Part shown: piece after piece, positions 22-6,307 of the stretch
Numbering within the stretch: the stretch's first letter is position 1
Layout of the letters: every line of letters begins with the position of its first letter
DNA from: a candidate division KSB1 bacterium
GTDB taxonomy: Bacteria; Zhuqueibacterota; JdFR-76; DREG01
NCBI GenBank assembly: GCA_022566355.1
Contig: JADFJB010000178.1
Span: 1-6,426 of the forward strand
Length of the DNA stretch: 6,426 bases
Direction of reading: 5' to 3'
The notes under the pieces: generated by a model
Databases searched by the model: none
The model's input: the letters and a program-made list of their open reading frames with translations, nothing else
What the model was told of the DNA's origin: nothing
Made by a program: the position numbers and the translations under genes

Positions 22-998
22 AACTATCTCCTTTTAGGTTGTTCGTATATTCTTAATTGCTAAAATAACAATAACTTGAGTCATATTCAAGAAGAACAAA
101 TCTCGCCAGCTAATATTGAAATGCCCCAAATGACTCATCGGGTTGAAGGCTATTCTGCGACAGCCTGCTGGGCGGGATTGTTTTGCCGATCATGATATGG
201 TTATCACAAAGTTTTGATTTTATTCAGGAGATATTTACAGTTCATTGATATTGGATATTACAAATTGATTAGTCCAAAATCAATAATTTTCTCGGAATTA
301 TTGGATATAGGATGGATAGAATAAAATGATTCTAGTTATTGAACTTCGGAGCTTGAAAGGATCGCTCAGGAGCTACCAAATCCCCACCAGACCTTCATAG
401 AAGCTCACCATTCGGTTTTCTATATTCGGATGAGGTAATATTGAGGATAATTCCCTTTATAACTTATATCGAACCTTGAAAGATCGGATTCAGAGGATGG
501 TTAGAAAAAAAGAATTGTTTTTCTGCGTAATCGTACCCCTACACCCCAAATAATCATGATGGGGCGGCGATTAGAAATATCCGCATGATAATTTATAACA
601 TTTTCAAAGACGTACGAACTGCTCCGAGTTGACCAATTTTTATATCTCTTTTATATTAACAGCCCCTGCCAGTTTTACCACTCGATGGGGTATGGGCATG
701 GAAATCACCGCAAACTCCTTATTAAAGCGCATGCTGTTTTGATTGATTGTCGATATTTCATTTTGCTTAATGTCAAATTAGTCAACTTTCTTTGTTTAAG
801 ATTTTCCCTTATCTGACCTAGAAGTATTTCCCGTTCTTCGTTTGGCGTTTTATATCTCTTTCTCATACTCTTCAATTTTCTTTTACGCTCCTGTTGTTAA
901 TATTCCAACATTTCCGACAATACGATTGATGATAGCGCGGTTCATTCTAGCATTAACAAAACCGCCATTACTTACGGCATGTGTTGCGAAAATTATTT
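22..998. other. Gene-poor stretch with short coding-like debris
   Basis: No complete recognisable gene was found on either strand. Plus-strand frame 1 gives protein-like runs broken by stops: about 43 codons from 64 to 192 (including IEMPQMTHRVEGY) and about 30 codons from 343 to 435 (including ELERIAQELPNPHQ). On the minus strand a run lies directly downstream of the methyltransferase stop, at 998 to about 885 (including NGGFVNARMNRAIINRIVG), and a 53-codon frame lies at 866-705. None matches a family I recognise. The region could be decayed coding DNA, but open runs of 30-50 codons also arise by chance. I saw no RNA gene, clear terminator, CRISPR or IS end here. Confidence 0.4.
705..866 (-). 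CDS. Doubtful small hypothetical ORF, 53 aa
   Basis: This frame begins with ATG at 866 and reads MRKRYKTPNEEREILLGQ, then a lysine/arginine-rich sequence ending IRSLR. It is strongly basic, with no signal peptide, membrane segment or recognised motif. The frame is open for ten further codons upstream, to a TAA about 33 bases before the ATG (QQERKRKLKS reads into it), so it may be the tail end of something older rather than a gene of its own. A purine-rich GAAGAG lies too close to the ATG to be a good ribosome binding site. I do not recognise a family. It could be a degraded fragment or chance. Confidence 0.18.
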   Translation of the reverse strand: MRKRYKTPNEEREILLGQIRENLKQRKLTNLTLSKMKYRQSIKTACALIRSLR

Positions 999-2094: not shown

Positions 2095-2436
2095 CCCGTT
2101 TTTTCTCACGGGCTTTTATTTAATGGGAAAGTTCTGTTGCACTTCTTTTCGTTCCTTGCCACCAAAAGGTATCAACGGACACATGAACACTTGTAAAATG
2201 ATTCTATTGGCATACTCAGAAGGATCCATATGTAGCATGGGGGTAACCCTTTCCAAAAAAAGGGGTGGGGGCATCAATCACCCGCCACCCACTTTGGTGT
2301 CCATATGGTGTCTATAATTGGACACAATTGGTATAAATACAGCAAAATTGGTATAAATCAACTACTACTATAAGTTATTGTAAAAACATAAACTTACTTG
2401 AATTTCAAAAGGATACGGGGATAGTGGGTAATGGGT
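2095..2436. other. Intergenic stretch without a recognisable gene
   Basis: Both strands have open frames here: a plus frame at 2078-2317, and a minus frame at about 2281-2123 containing HMDPSEYANRIILQ. Neither has a clear ribosome binding site or a family signature, and each may be the shadow of the other or of nothing. Visible structures are a weak hairpin CCCGT/ACGGG (2095-2112) followed by CTTTTATTT on the plus strand, a G/C-rich imperfect hairpin around 2263-2291, and a repeat cluster at 2296-2358 (listed separately). Function unknown. Confidence 0.4.
2296..2358. repeat. Cluster of short phased repeats (GGTGTC and AATTGG/AATTGGTATAAAT)
   Basis: GGTGTC occurs at 2296-2301 and 2307-2312 (period 11), with the inverse GACAC at 2321-2325. 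AATTGG occurs at 2316, 2326 and 2346, that is, at offsets of 10 and 20 bases. The last two copies extend to an exact 13-base direct repeat AATTGGTATAAAT at 2326-2338 and 2346-2358. Spacing in whole helical turns puts the copies on one DNA face, as in operators or recombinase arm sites. No gene start lies close enough to show what it would control, so the role is a guess. Confidence 0.5.
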
Positions 2437-2453
2437 TTAGAAGTCCGTTGCTC
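2437..2453 (-). repeat. tRNA-like 17-base fragment, candidate att-site relic
   Basis: Read on the minus strand this is GAGCAACGGACTTCTAA, which has the form of the 3' D-stem plus the 5' anticodon arm and loop of a tRNA. The first 12 bases (GAGCAACGGACT) are identical to the tRNA-Lys gene at 3012-3001 in the same orientation. The loop would carry TCT (Arg) rather than CTT, and the bases beyond it no longer pair, so this is not a tRNA gene. It lies 25 bases beyond the stop of an integrase C-terminal relic (2479). tRNA anticodon arms are classical crossover sites for tyrosine integrases, so an attL/attR relic is likely. Confidence 0.45.
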
Positions 2454-2478
2454 CATGTCATTTATGAATTTTTCTCTA

Positions 2479-2598
2479 CTACATCAATTCGGGAAGTTTA
2501 TCTATCGCTTCGTCTTTCTTTTTGTCTATCAGTTTAGCATAGATTTGGGTGGTTTTTATATCTTTGTGGCCTAATAATATTTGAAGAACTTTGCCAAT
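2479..2598 (-). pseudogene. Tyrosine recombinase/integrase, C-terminal fragment
   Basis: About 39 codons on the minus strand encode GKVLQILLGHKDIKTTQIY and continue AKLIDKKKDEAIDKLPELM to a TAG at 2479. This is the last part of the catalytic domain of a phage/transposon-type tyrosine integrase: the LLGH histidine, then KTTQIY with the nucleophilic tyrosine, then the usual charged C-terminal helix. The N-terminal domains and the catalytic Arg, Lys and first His are absent. Upstream, the frame closes at a stop (2610-2608) after only a few codons, and the plus-strand integrase fragment begins at the same place. The fragment cannot be functional. Its style differs from the relic at 3103-3429, so it is a separate integrase. 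Confidence 0.85.
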
Positions 2599-2755
2599 GA
2601 GTAAATTCTACAAAACCAAAATAGGCGGTACTAAGTCCTGGTATTACTGTTTCGTTTACCAGAGCAAGAAATACAGAGGTGTAGGGAGAACCACATCAGA
2701 AACCCCCACTGGATATATTTTCTTAGTTAGCTACCTTATAAGGAAAAATTTCTAA
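2597..2755 (+). pseudogene. Tyrosine integrase, N-terminal fragment
   Basis: A 52-codon frame from ATG at 2597 reads MSKFYKTKIGGTKSWYYCF, then VYQSKKYRGVGRTTSET, before losing resemblance (TPTGYIFLVS...) and stopping at 2755. The first 35 or so residues look like the arm-type DNA-binding beta-sheet domain at the N-terminus of many integrases (aromatic strand WYYxFxYxxKxYRGVG, then a turn). The SAM-like and catalytic domains are missing. There is no ribosome binding site, because the bases just upstream belong to the opposing integrase fragment at 2479-2598, so the junction is a rearrangement breakpoint. Recognition rests on pattern similarity over a short stretch, so confidence is moderate. 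Confidence 0.55.
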
Positions 2756-2843
2756 AAAATATTTAGCGACGGGTATATATATATCTTACCTACCCCTCAT
2801 TTTTTTGGGTGTATGGAGTCTCGGAATCGGAATAAATCTGAGC

Positions 2844-2862
2844 ACCGTGACGCTACCGTGAC
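2844..2862. repeat. Tandem ACCGTGAC pair with 11-base period
   Basis: ACCGTGAC occurs at 2844-2851 and again at 2855-2862, one helical turn apart, in an otherwise AT-rich spacer about 100 bases beyond the 3' end of the tRNA-Lys gene. Short direct repeats beside an attachment site are where integrases and excisionases bind (arm sites), which fits the setting. Two 8-mers are weak evidence. Confidence 0.4.
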
Positions 2863-2922
2863 ACGACTCTGTTAAAAAGGGGTTAAAATGAGTCAAAACC
2901 AGTTAAATTGGAATCAAATAAT

Positions 2923-2954
2923 AAACCCCATAACAATTTAATATTACAGGGTTT
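2923..2954 (-). terminator. Weak possible terminator after tRNA-Lys
   Basis: On the minus strand, starting six bases beyond the tRNA 3' end, AAACCC (2954-2949) can pair with GGGTTT (2928-2923) across a 20-base AT-rich loop. It is followed by ATTATTTGATT. The stem is short and the loop long, so this is only a candidate for the transcript end of the tRNA. Confidence 0.25.
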
Positions 2955-2960
2955 AAGCAG

Positions 2961-3033
2961 TGCGCCCACTAGGAATCGAACCTAGAACCTGCGGATTAAG
3001 AGTCCGTTGCTCTGCCAATTGAGCTATGGGCGC
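2961..3033 (-). tRNA. tRNA-Lys (anticodon CTT)
   Basis: The minus strand folds into a full 73-base cloverleaf. The acceptor stem is GCGCCCA/TGGGCGC with discriminator A, the D arm GCTC-AATTGGCA-GAGC, the anticodon arm ACGGA-CTCTTAA-TCCGC (one A-C mismatch at the top of the stem), the variable loop five bases, and the T arm CTAGG-TTCGAAT-CCTAG. The loop reads C-T-CTT-A-A, so the anticodon is CTT and the tRNA decodes AAG as lysine. CCA is not encoded; the next bases are CTGCTT. It appears intact and probably functional. It is surrounded by integrase relics, and its D/anticodon-arm sequence recurs at 2437-2453, which marks it as a likely integration target. Confidence 0.97.
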
Positions 3034-3102
3034 ATATATTGTTTTTTAAAGACTTACGAACCTCCAGTTTTCACAATTTTCATCTTGGTATACATAACTG
3101 GC

Positions 3103-3429
3103 TTATAAACGTTCCAAAGCCAGTCTTTTATGCTCATTACTCAAATGAGAATATCTCATCGTTGTTGTAATTTGCTTATGCCCTAAAAGCTCTTTCTTAT
3201 ATGATCGTTTGTAAGATTTACTATAACTAAGTTATTCTTTGCTGAACTCATTGAATTTGACACGCTTCTCAGACTTCTTCAAACCAAAATGCCCTTGCGC
3301 AATCTTTCCTTTCCTGGCTTCAAAAGCTCTTTGAGCCAGCTTTTTGATGGTTCCTACACTTTCCTGTTTTCTTTTTCAATTGTAGTAATAGTCGATAAAC
3401 CATTTGCTATTTTGGTTATAAATAGCCAT
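3103..3429 (-). pseudogene. Tyrosine integrase relic with in-frame core deletion and two stops
   Basis: A single continuous minus-strand frame of 109 codons carries both ends of one integrase. The N-terminus, from ATG at 3429 (GAGG at 3439-3436, six bases before it), reads MAIYNQNSKWFIDYYYN, then a TGA at 3378-3376. It continues KRKQESVGTIKKLAQRAFEA, RKGKIAQGHFGLKKSEKRVK, FNEFSKE, then a TAA at 3234-3232 where related proteins usually have an aromatic residue, then LSYSKSYKRSYKK. Directly after comes ELLGHKQITTTMRYSHLS and a C-terminal helix ending at TAA 3103. The LGH histidine and the MRY tyrosine nucleophile remain. The catalytic Arg, Lys and first HxxR, a few hundred codons in full-length relatives, are lost, with the join near 3192 keeping phase. 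It lies between the tRNA-Lys and the excisionase-like gene, an arrangement expected for an integrase module. Non-functional. Confidence 0.88.
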
Positions 3430-3534
3430 TGGATACCTCACTATTGTTAATAGAAAAAGAATATTTAAGTCCAATGTAGTGAATAATTTGTGATGTTTCA
3501 AGCATAATACTATCGTTTTAAAGTAAATTTCAGA

Positions 3535-3717
3535 TCAATAGACCTGGACTTCCTGAGTTTGTGATTTAAGCCATTTTTTAAGCCCTCTTGGATCAAATTT
3601 GACCAGTCGACTAACTTTTATAAATGGTATTTTTCTCCGGCTGCCCCATGAATAAAGCGTTGGCACTTTTATGCCTAAATAGTCTGAAGTCTCTTCAATA
3701 TTTAATAGTTTTTTCAA
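3535..3717 (-). CDS. Excisionase/AlpA-like helix-turn-helix protein, 60 aa
   Basis: Small basic DNA-binding protein. LLNIEETSDYLGIKVPTLYSW followed by GSRRKIPFIKVSRLVKFD and LKKWL is the classic winged MerR-like helix-turn-helix of the HTH_17/excisionase group, with the helix-turn-helix at about residues 5-25 and the wing at about 27-45. The length is normal, so the protein looks complete. The start is TTG at 3717-3715; no ATG lies nearby, and only a weak GGA (3726-3724) precedes it, so the start is uncertain. In this family such proteins direct integrase toward excision or regulate phage/island genes. That fits the degenerate integrase beginning 105 bases downstream on the same strand, probably once its partner. 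Dyad symmetries just upstream (3725-3789) may be its operator. Confidence 0.72.
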   Translation of the reverse strand: MKKLLNIEETSDYLGIKVPTLYSWGSRRKIPFIKVSRLVKFDPRGLKKWLKSQTQEVQVY

Positions 3718-3817: not shown

Positions 3818-3867
3818 GCGACATTTAAAAGTCCCTATTAACGACAATTAAAATTCCCTTTTTTTAG
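3818..3867 (+). repeat. IS21 left terminal repeats L1 and L2
   Basis: L1 (GCGACATTTAAAAGTCCCT, 3818-3836) and L2 (ACGACAATTAAAATTCCCT, 3841-3859, extending as inverted repeat to 3867) are direct repeats matching at 16 of 19 positions, with starts 23 bases apart. In IS21 elements such repeats are the transposase (IstA) binding sites. L2 is the copy matched perfectly at the right end. Confidence 0.8.
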
Positions 3868-3870
3868 GAG

Positions 3871-3905
3871 GGTATTCATACCATTTAAGTCAAACCAAAT
3901 GGAGG
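3871..3905 (+). promoter_or_regulatory. istA leader: Shine-Dalgarno site partly in a hairpin
   Basis: GGAGG at 3901-3905 lies five bases before the istA ATG, a strong ribosome binding site. Its first two bases also complete AAATGG (3897-3902), which can pair with CCATTT (3881-3886) across a 10-base loop. A smaller GGTAT-TC-ATACC dyad lies at 3871-3882 and overlaps the same stem. A leader hairpin that masks the start of a transposase gene is a common way for insertion sequences to limit translation. Here the stem is only six mostly A/T pairs, so any effect is uncertain. Confidence 0.35.
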
Positions 3906-3910
3906 CTTAG

Positions 3911-5395
3911 ATGGTAACAGAACAACAAGTGCGGAGGTTAATGAGACTAATGCAGACAGAGAGGACACAAAGTATCGCAGCATCCAAAGCTGGGATGGAT
4001 GTAAAGACAGCAAGGAAGTATATTCGTTTAAAAAGACTTCCCAGCGAAATAAACGTTGAACATCCCTGGCTTACCCGAGAAGACCCGTTTTCTGAAGTAT
4101 GGGACGAGGTAAAAACCAAATTGCAGATTAATCCTGGTCTTGAAGCAAAAACGCTTTTTGACTATTTACAAGGCCAATATCCCGGCAAATTTTCAGATGG
4201 CCAGTTACGCACTCTCCAGCGACGTGTAAAACATTGGCGCAGCACCGAAGGCCCAGCCAAAGAGGTATTTTTTGCTCAACAACATCATCCTGGACAATTG
4301 TGTCAATCCGATTTTACTCATATGGATGATTTAGGGGTTACAATTAATAAAGTTCCATTTAACCATATGATCTATCATTTTGTTCTCACCTATTCCAATT
4401 GGGAAACTGGGACGATCTGTTTTTCGGAGAGTTTTGAAAGCTTAAGTAATGGCTTACAAAATGCACTTTGGGAATTGGGCGGCGTCCCAGATAGCCACCA
4501 GACAGATCGATTGAGCGCTGCGATAAATAACAGTTGCAGCCATAAAGTATTTACTCAGCGTTATGCCAGCTTGTTAAGGCATTATAAATTGCATGGCCGA
4601 AAGATACAGCCAGGCAAAGCCAATGAAAATGGCGATGTAGAACAACGTCATTTTCGCTTTAAAAAAGCTCTGCAACAATCATTTATGCTTGGCGGCAGTA
4701 GCGATTTTCAGAATCGCGACGAGTATGAACACTATCTTAAAAATTTGTTCAACCAGCTAAATTCAAACCGGCGAAAACGATTTGAAGAGGAATTGACTGT
4801 TTTGCATCGTTTACCCAATTCTCGTCTGGATTGCCGTAAAAACATGGAGATCAAAGTTGGTCCCAGCAGCACCATTCGGGTAAGCCACAATATTTATTCG
4901 GTTCACAGCCGTCTCATTGGCGAGATCGTAAAAGTTCGATTGTATTCAGATTATCTGGAAATCTGGTATGCTCAAAAATGCATAGAGAAAATCCCCAGAC
5001 TTCGAGGCGAGAGTCGTTCTCATATTCAATATCGCCACATTATCGATTGGTTGATTCGTAAACCAGGAGCTTTTGCCAACTATCGATATAAAAAGGATTT
5101 GTTTCCTACGCATCGATTCCGCATGGCTTATGATTATTTAGGTCGCCATTCTCATCCTAAAGCAGCCAAAGAATATTTGAAAATATTATATCTGGCCGCA
5201 AGGGAAAATGAAACCGCCGTAGATCATGCGTTGGACTATATGTTTATAAAAAACATCCCCATCTGCTGCGAAACAGTTCGAGAACTGATTCAATCAGACC
5301 AAAAACTTGAAAAGTCAAAAGATGTTAACATTGACTCTGTTGACCTAAATATTTATGATCAACTGTTATTAGGAAAATGGACAGTGACATGTTAG
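3911..5395 (+). CDS. istA: IS21-family transposase IstA, 494 aa
   Basis: DDE-type transposase that binds the terminal repeats and carries out strand cleavage and transfer with its partner IstB. Residues about 1-45 hold a helix-turn-helix (TERTQSIAASKAGMDVKTAR) for end binding. A linker follows (HPWLTREDPFSEVW), then the RNase H-like integrase core at about 125-255 with the acidic triad readable as D134 (QSDFTH), D199 (QTDRLSAA) and E244 (ENGDVEQ). After it comes the C-terminal beta-barrel region (VGPSSTIRVSHNIYSV, then YSDYLEIWY) and a basic tail region (KPGAFANYRYKKDLFP). The length is typical and the frame unbroken, so it looks functional. The start at 3911 is supported by GGAGG at 3901-3905. 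Its end overlaps istB by 19 bases, implying one transcript with translational coupling. Confidence 0.96.
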   Translation: MVTEQQVRRLMRLMQTERTQSIAASKAGMDVKTARKYIRLKRLPSEINVEHPWLTREDPFSEVWDEVKTKLQINPGLEAKTLFDYLQGQYPGKFSDGQLRTLQRRVKHWRSTEGPAKEVFFAQQHHPGQLCQSDFTHMDDLGVTINKVPFNHMIYHFVLTYSNWETGTICFSESFESLSNGLQNALWELGGVPDSHQTDRLSAAINNSCSHKVFTQRYASLLRHYKLHGRKIQPGKANENGDVEQRHFRFKKALQQSFMLGGSSDFQNRDEYEHYLKNLFNQLNSNRRKRFEEELTVLHRLPNSRLDCRKNMEIKVGPSSTIRVSHNIYSVHSRLIGEIVKVRLYSDYLEIWYAQKCIEKIPRLRGESRSHIQYRHIIDWLIRKPGAFANYRYKKDLFPTHRFRMAYDYLGRHSHPKAAKEYLKILYLAARENETAVDHALDYMFIKNIPICCETVRELIQSDQKLEKSKDVNIDSVDLNIYDQLLLGKWTVTC

Positions 5396-6135
5396 AGAAA
5401 CAAATCAATCACTATTTAAAAGAACTTCATTTGCCGACTGTAAAGTCTTGTTACCAGGAACAAGCTCATTTAGCCAGACAAGACTCCTTGAGTTACGAAC
5501 AATATCTTTTAGAACTTATCGAAAGAGAGCGTGAGGTGAGACGTTATAATCGCATCACACGTATACTCAGAGAATCGAAATTACCCCTGGAAAAGACGTT
5601 AGAATCTTTTGATCGCAAACGATTACCCGGTAGAGTTAATTCTCAAGTGAGCGTTTTATTGGATGGTTCATTTTTGGATCGTTGTGAAAACATATTGGCC
5701 TTTGGGAATCCTGGCAGCGGCAAAACCCATTTGTTATGTGCGATAGCTCAAGAGCTTGTGCAACAGGGAAGAAGGATATTATTCAGTCCGTGCAATCTTT
5801 TGGTTCAACAAATGTTAATCTTGAAACGAGATTTCAAGTTGCCTCGTTTCTTAAAACAACTAGCCAAATATGATGCGTTGATTCTTGATGATATTGGCTA
5901 TATTCAACAAAATCGTGAAGAGATGGAAGTCCTGTTTACGCTTTTGGCAGACCGATATGAAAGAGGAAGTATTATGTTAACCAGTAACCTTCCCTTTTCA
6001 AAATGGGAAACCATTTTTAAGGATCCAATGATAACAGCAGCGGCAATTGATCGGTTGGTTCATCATAGTGTGATTCTTGAACTAAATATCAAAAGTTATA
6101 GATTGGAACAATCCCAAATAAAACAAACAGAATGA
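5377..6135 (+). CDS. istB: IS21 helper ATPase IstB, 252 aa
   Basis: AAA+ ATPase of the DnaC/IstB group that assists IstA by remodelling target DNA and activating the transposase. Residues about 1-85 form the helical N-terminal region (LHLPTVKSCYQEQA, then YLLELIEREREVRRYNR). The ATPase domain has Walker A GNPGSGKTH at 110-118, Walker B ALILDDIGY at 167-175, a sensor-1-like LTSNLPFSKW at 201-210 and a candidate sensor-2/arginine region AAAIDRLVHHS at 221-231. The length is typical and the frame intact. Two starts are possible: ATG 5377, with AGGA only two bases before it, and ATG 5389 (MLEKQINHYL), with GGA seven bases before it. The second would give 248 aa, and both lie inside the end of istA. 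The pair forms the IS21 operon. Confidence 0.96.
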   Translation: MDSDMLEKQINHYLKELHLPTVKSCYQEQAHLARQDSLSYEQYLLELIEREREVRRYNRITRILRESKLPLEKTLESFDRKRLPGRVNSQVSVLLDGSFLDRCENILAFGNPGSGKTHLLCAIAQELVQQGRRILFSPCNLLVQQMLILKRDFKLPRFLKQLAKYDALILDDIGYIQQNREEMEVLFTLLADRYERGSIMLTSNLPFSKWETIFKDPMITAAAIDRLVHHSVILELNIKSYRLEQSQIKQTE

Positions 6136-6169
6136 TTAAAAAATTAAACGGAAAGGTGGTGATGTTTTT

Positions 6170-6191
6170 TTGCAATGGTTAACCATTGCAA
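6170..6191. repeat. Perfect 22-base palindrome downstream of istB
   Basis: TTGCAATGGTT (6170-6180) is followed directly by its exact reverse complement (6181-6191). It lies 34 bases after the istB stop and inside the IS. A run of seven T precedes it on the plus strand (6164-6170), but no T run follows it on either strand, so it does not fit an intrinsic terminator. It could be a binding site for a dimeric protein, a cruciform-forming site, or an element protecting the end of the istB message. Confidence 0.6.
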
Positions 6192-6257
6192 GGAATAGGG
6201 AATAAGTAGACCATACGATCATCACTGGTTCAATGACATATAATGATTAATGAGATA

Positions 6258-6307
6258 CTAAAAAAAGGGAATTTTAATTGTCGCCGGAAGGAAATAATAG
6301 TTGACAT
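6258..6307 (-). repeat. IS21 right terminal repeats
   Basis: The inner repeat (6283-6258 on the minus strand) is identical over 26 bases to left repeat L2. The outer repeat (6307-6289, ATGTCAACTATTATTTCCT) matches left L1 at only 10 of 19 positions, but its start is exactly 23 bases outside the inner repeat and six bases inside the CA tip, the same geometry as at the left end. The outer copy would not be called on similarity alone; spacing makes the case. Confidence 0.65.

Follow-up and report, generated by a model that had tools for sequence, protein, structure and literature searches.

A tRNA-Lys(CTT) locus with the probable remains of two or more tyrosine-integrase elements

The DNA examined here, referred to as the window, is one whole contig of 6,426 bases (G000:C178) from a draft genome of 4.62 Mb. 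It carries a tRNA-Lys(CTT) gene, a short copy of part of that gene and pieces of tyrosine integrase. The locus raises the question of whether these are the two ends of a single decayed island, or the remains of different elements that have accumulated at one tRNA gene.

Results

Integrase remnants on both sides of an intact tRNA-Lys gene

The features on which the analysis is based are the following.

2294-2368, minus strand: att flank with two TTTATACCAATT repeats 20 bp apart and GACACCATATGGACACC (identity to contig C123)
2434-2453, minus strand: tRNA-Arg(TCT)-like att relic GAGCAACGGACTTCTAAACC, equivalent to tRNA nucleotides 22-41 (12-mer, shuffles and 17-mer survey)
2479-2607, minus strand: integrase remnant 1, C-terminal part including the catalytic-Tyr motif (HMM E 9.5e-6 over 2482-2607)
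2591-2755, plus strand: integrase remnant 2, N-terminal domain (BLASTP 3e-7; HMM E 0.13)
2846-2862, minus strand: arm-site-like direct repeat GTCACGGTAGCGTCACG with an 11-bp period, 98 bp beyond the tRNA-Lys 3' end
2960-3033, minus strand: tRNA-Lys(CTT), intact target gene (ARAGORN; Rfam RF00005, 72 bits)
3103-3429, minus strand: integrase remnant 3, both termini present but the middle deleted, with stops (HMM)
3535-3717, minus strand: HTH_17 protein of 60 aa (Pfam HTH_17, 2.1e-9)
3842-6283, plus strand: IS21-family insertion with istA, istB and 26-bp perfect inverted repeats
3911-5395: istA, within the IS21 insertion
5377-6135: istB, within the IS21 insertion

The components named in the original prediction, an intact tRNA-Lys, an exact same-strand 12-mer copy and three integrase pieces, were all found to be present with ARAGORN, Rfam, shuffles, HMM and BLASTP. 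The 12-mer GAGCAACGGACT has exactly two matches, both on the minus strand (2442-2453 and 3001-3012), and two copies arose in none of 200 shuffles. The wider repeat around them is identical at 17 of 20 positions. Because the 3' half of tRNA-Lys(CTT) is repeated 190-330 bp downstream of the gene in the relatives G002 and G006, this tRNA is an integration hotspot, as had been proposed. At one such locus, L134 (G006:C55), a short reading frame that resembles a GIY-YIG nuclease (by eye only) lies at 9035-9466 between tRNA-Lys(CTT) and its 3'-half copy, and the duplicated tRNA edge falls within its 3' end.

The integrase pieces were scored with an HMM built from 18 intact relatives. The tyrosine integrase gene is present as three remnants, every one of them broken and short. 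Remnant 1 reads towards the relic and ends 25 bp from it, on the side opposite to the repeat flank; relatives with 84-85% DNA identity occur on contigs C7 and C55. Remnant 2 is weak by HMM (2585-2752), and BLASTP matches it with an E value of 3e-7 to the intact N-terminus of L250 and L254, which belong to the family of intact tRNA-adjacent integrases. Remnant 3 had been taken for a single fragment; it is genuine integrase sequence, but is not continuous, consisting of both ends of one integrase placed back to back without the middle (C-terminus at 3106-3231 on the minus strand, E 3e-8; N-terminus at 3235-3429 on the minus strand, with the HMM match at 3235-3375, E 1.2e-4). It shows 69.5% DNA identity to a broken integrase on contig C80 of the same genome, which is situated 88 bp upstream of tRNA-Arg(CCT) in the same integrase-tRNA layout. 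Membership of the pieces in a tRNA-targeting family is supported.

On the upstream side of tRNA-Lys, the order is HTH_17 gene, remnant 3 and, 70 bp after its C-terminus and on the same strand, the 5' end of the tRNA. The small HTH gene upstream of the integrase corresponds to the layout of an excisionase-integrase module, and most loci with intact integrases have an HTH_17 homologue immediately upstream of the integrase; the HTH_17 protein is the probable excisionase of the remnant 3 module. Farther upstream, the locus is broken up by the IS21 insertion. Moving downstream from tRNA-Lys, one meets the repeat sites and then remnants 2 and 1, followed by the tRNA-Arg relic and the flank belonging to it.

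Two other segments of the window were noted. An O-methyltransferase gene segment (955-2091) shares 97% DNA identity, ending abruptly at either edge, with one from a small G056 contig. G056 belongs to a different family in the same phylum, and the match reflects either recent transfer or mixed binning. At the contig end (6301-6426, minus strand), the YADD region of a reverse transcriptase was recognized (RVT_1, E 5e-4), probably from a group II intron.

The distal copy resembles tRNA-Arg(TCT)

Compared with tRNA-Arg(TCT), the relic at 2434-2453 agrees at 19 of 20 positions, 17 of them consecutive. The local score of 17 was equalled by none of 300 shuffled windows, whereas the score of 12 against tRNA-Lys was equalled by 10 of 300. 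The Arg-like TCT loop pointed out in the original prediction is thus real, and tRNA-Arg(TCT) fits far better than tRNA-Lys. The 17-mer GAGCAACGGACTTCTAA is present in 40 of the 82 genomes of the phylum, nearly always as a single copy, and the reversed 17-mer used as a control gave no match in these genomes. We checked 27 of these loci: 26 have it inside tRNA-Arg(TCT) and not beside tRNA-Lys, and the remaining one is at a contig edge. The relic retains about 20 bases, less than a tRNA half, and does not include the tRNA-Lys 3' half. The relic is therefore not a displaced piece of tRNA-Lys, and an origin in another tRNA, tRNA-Arg(TCT), as offered in the original prediction as the second option, fits best.

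In the assembly of the window's genome, the relic is the sole copy of the 17-mer and the sole tRNA-Arg(TCT) sequence, and a search for a tRNA-Arg(TCT) gene there found none. This absence means little because the assembly likewise lacks tRNAs for His, Ile, Glu(TTC), Val(TAC), Ala(TGC) and Thr(GGT), and on the same grounds we rejected the idea that the relic is the host's lost gene. The real gene probably lies in an assembly gap.

The flank at 2294-2368, in which the TTTATACCAATT unit measures 12 bases, shows 88% identity to the stretch after tRNA-Lys(TTT) on contig C123 of the same genome. In an end-to-end alignment, the relic occupies the place of the D-arm and anticodon arm of tRNA-Lys(TTT). 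As its flank is homologous to that of another tRNA gene, the relic represents a second, separate att site. Repeats of the GYYACS type with an 11-bp period occur five times in ~360 kb of the window's genome, all five within 250 bp of a tRNA or a relic and none in 339 kb elsewhere. None of 360 permuted patterns performed better, but as the motif was defined after examples had been seen, this is supporting evidence only. We regard the repeats as putative integrase arm sites.

Similar sequences were observed elsewhere. A dispersed repeat of ~80-130 bp (window 195-320 and 212-292) recurs on C123, near tRNA-Lys(TTT), as well as on C85 and C52. Nearly identical copies of TGTTACCAAAACGTTACCACTTTTTC are located 61 bp after tRNA-Met (L169, 636-710) and tRNA-Thr(CGT) (L123, 9576-9649); together with a GGATAGAGCAACGGACTT relic on C52, they make up further att-like scars.

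Intact relatives read into tRNA genes, often from the 5' side

The 82 genomes of the phylum were searched first with pieces of the C80 relative and then with an intact relative. As to the targets of intact integrases, 17 of the 20 found in the second search end, by their C-terminus, at a tRNA or tRNA half, and three are without a tRNA. Eight of the 17 read into a complete tRNA of the same strand at its 5' end, namely Arg-TCT (twice, L252 and L253), Val-CAC (twice), SeC (twice), Arg-CCT and Leu-CAA. Another five read into the 3' half of a tRNA that has been displaced, and the remaining four approach a complete tRNA from the 3' side. Most of the 5'-end readers have their stop codon 7-75 bp from the tRNA, and the L257 integrase runs into the tRNA; gaps of 7-40 bp between stop codon and tRNA are frequent. 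Integrases of the 5' and 3' types are interleaved in the tree and mixed inside well-supported clades, one of which (support 100/100) contains 5'-type integrases at Val, SeC and Arg(TCT) and a 3'-type integrase at Met; the type consequently cannot be read from the protein alone. A search of viral contigs with an intact integrase returned one distant relative (31%), and known phage integrases were below 60% save for one record, with the best-ranked at ~33%, so that we claim no phage identity. At one locus, L215 (G061:C130), tRNA-Arg(TCT) has an integrase upstream and, at 2.7 and 4.4 kb downstream, two copies of its 3' half, indicating that this gene was hit from both sides. Of the two results that the original prediction named as refuting it, neither was obtained: relatives have the 17-mer within tRNA-Arg(TCT) and not at tRNA-Lys, and the intact integrases are directed at tRNAs.

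Displaced 5' halves were found for two of these tRNAs. In G039, where the integrase lies just upstream of tRNA-Val(CAC), contig C22 carries two copies of nucleotides 1-43 of the tRNA (100% and 98%), and in G043, with the integrase just upstream of tRNA-SeC, nucleotides -5 to 44 occur on contig C3 with 100% identity. AT-rich sequence lies upstream of each. The motif GCCACC-N5-GCCACC follows the displaced half at C22:48071 and on C3, with a near match at C22:71370, and is also present within the 3' end of the integrase gene in L210 and L216. These halves are what integration at the anticodon loop would be expected to leave behind when the element supplies a 5' half; neither the G039 nor the G043 element is whole on one contig, the displaced halves being on contigs other than those with integrase and tRNA. 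When the displaced Val and SeC halves were aligned with sister species in search of an empty site, DNA similarity ended at the tRNA and its immediate edge. A tandem array was considered for the two 5'-half copies on C22 and rejected, as there is no integrase before the second copy.

The window's genome holds comparable copies at other tRNAs. An exact copy of nucleotides 1-37 of tRNA-Asn lies 68 bp upstream of the gene (C39), a copy of nucleotides 1-39 of tRNA-Leu(GAG) lies 1,982 bp upstream (C89), and a 3'-half copy of tRNA-Arg(CCG) lies 54 bp downstream (C11), all on the side expected of an island fragment. The insertion in tRNA-Leu(GAG) (L184, contig C89, 228-2332) measures 2 kb. Besides a displaced 5' half, it has upstream sequence that looks like a promoter, and paired repeats at either end (GTGCCCGGTTTGGTGCCCGG and GGTGTCCTATTTGGTGCCCGG). 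It lacks an integrase, contains a single reading frame (304 aa) of no recognized kind, and is possibly a non-autonomous element.

Origin of the remnants

Remnant 3 lies at the 5' side of tRNA-Lys and points in the same direction, a layout shared with C80 and with the eight intact relatives, and by analogy with these it would represent a 5'-type element in the window's genome. Since the stretch 3103-3717, read together with the adjacent tRNA-Lys, shares the layout of the intact loci, the window likely holds an attR end. Taking these results together, we put the probability at about 70% that the window consists of the attR end of a 5'-half-replacing element upstream of tRNA-Lys and an unrelated att relic downstream. 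In the assembly, the displaced tRNA-Lys 5' half is absent; the contig ends 3.4 kb upstream, where the IS21 insertion is located. The only tRNA-Lys fragment detected there was the 12-mer, which fits tRNA-Arg better. As no displaced tRNA-Lys fragment of matching orientation was found, we class the window as remnants and not as an intact island.

The single island put forward in the original prediction, with tRNA-Lys and the copy at 2442-2453 as its two ends and ~550 bp left between them, would account for the common strand and the exact 12-mer, and tRNA-Lys 3'-half copies do exist downstream of the gene in G002 and G006. Such an end should, however, hold tRNA-Lys nucleotides 33-74, none of which are in the copy. 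The copy belongs to another tRNA, its flank matches the tRNA-Lys(TTT) locus, and remnant 3 lies on the other side of tRNA-Lys, as in elements that rebuild the tRNA 5' half. We consider a single island unlikely.

Ordinary duplication or rearrangement of a tRNA-Arg(TCT) gene, with no integrase involved, could also have left the relic, and would agree with its being the only such sequence in the assembly. We judge this improbable to a similar degree, as an integrase C-terminus lies 25 bp away with repeat sites on the other side, and the many tRNAs missing from the assembly deprive the gene's absence of weight. A chance match might be entertained from the shuffles against tRNA-Lys alone, but those against tRNA-Arg(TCT) and the position of the relic relative to the flanking repeats, which is that of the real tRNA on C123, make chance a very remote explanation.

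We infer how the upstream and downstream remnants came together at tRNA-Lys as follows. An upstream element would have recombined at the anticodon loop and given tRNA-Lys a new 5' half, while the original 5' half and its promoter would have been pushed to the far upstream end, now lost. By analogy with the intact relatives, the HTH_17 gene, remnant 3 and the tRNA-Lys 5' end would constitute the attR end of this element. Downstream, the decayed tRNA-Arg(TCT)-like core, the adjoining repeats and remnant 1 pointing at the core may be a second att site, left by an element whose attP carried tRNA-Arg(TCT) sequence. The tRNA-Lys(CTT) locus thus probably preserves the wreckage of two or more tyrosine-integrase elements. 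On entry, one of them seems to have replaced the front half of the tRNA gene instead of the usual back half.

Discussion

Among the 3,919 islands in Islander, 3,760 have 3' fragments and 159 have 5' fragments (PMC4383910). The relatives share with these tRNA islands a tyrosine integrase, a whole tRNA with a displaced direct fragment, and a break in the anticodon region (PMC4383910). Islands with 5' fragments are a known but uncommon mechanism, of which the window is probably a new, decayed case. In this phylum, by comparison, eight of 17 tRNA-adjacent integrases read into a tRNA 5' end.

Two other systems invite comparison. In the type of control described for ICEKp1 and ICEclc, the integrated element has its integrase transcribed from the promoter of the host tRNA (PMC13023037). 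Here too, transcription of integrase and tRNA would be physically coupled at the attachment site, but the arrangement would be the mirror image, with the integrase upstream having to supply transcription of the tRNA. In tRNA-dependent lysogeny, the phage carries a tRNA of its own, and none is rebuilt (PMC10865867). An integrase at a tRNA gene and a short shared core are common to both, and the short match of the relic would fit (PMC10865867). In contrast, the relatives studied here have the tRNA rebuilt whole at the junction, and the complete same-isotype tRNA borne by the element is absent, no second tRNA having been found in the window.

Islands that replace the 5' half are a rarely counted minority, and this phylum offers many. 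With the integrase stop codon so often 7-40 bp from an essential tRNA, the question arises of what transcribes the tRNA. Because close relatives among these integrases differ in the orientation in which they use the anticodon arm, they also permit a direct test of how the near-palindrome of that arm sets which half is replaced. The frequency of the arrangement in the phylum and co-transcription of tRNA and integrase are worth following up. We tentatively raise the possibility that an integrase family in this phylum preferentially replaces the tRNA 5' half; the host tRNA would then be without its promoter and is predicted to form the tail end of the integrase transcript. If this were true, the integrase end of the element would be hard for the host to delete, which could explain why broken integrases remain beside intact tRNAs, as in the window.
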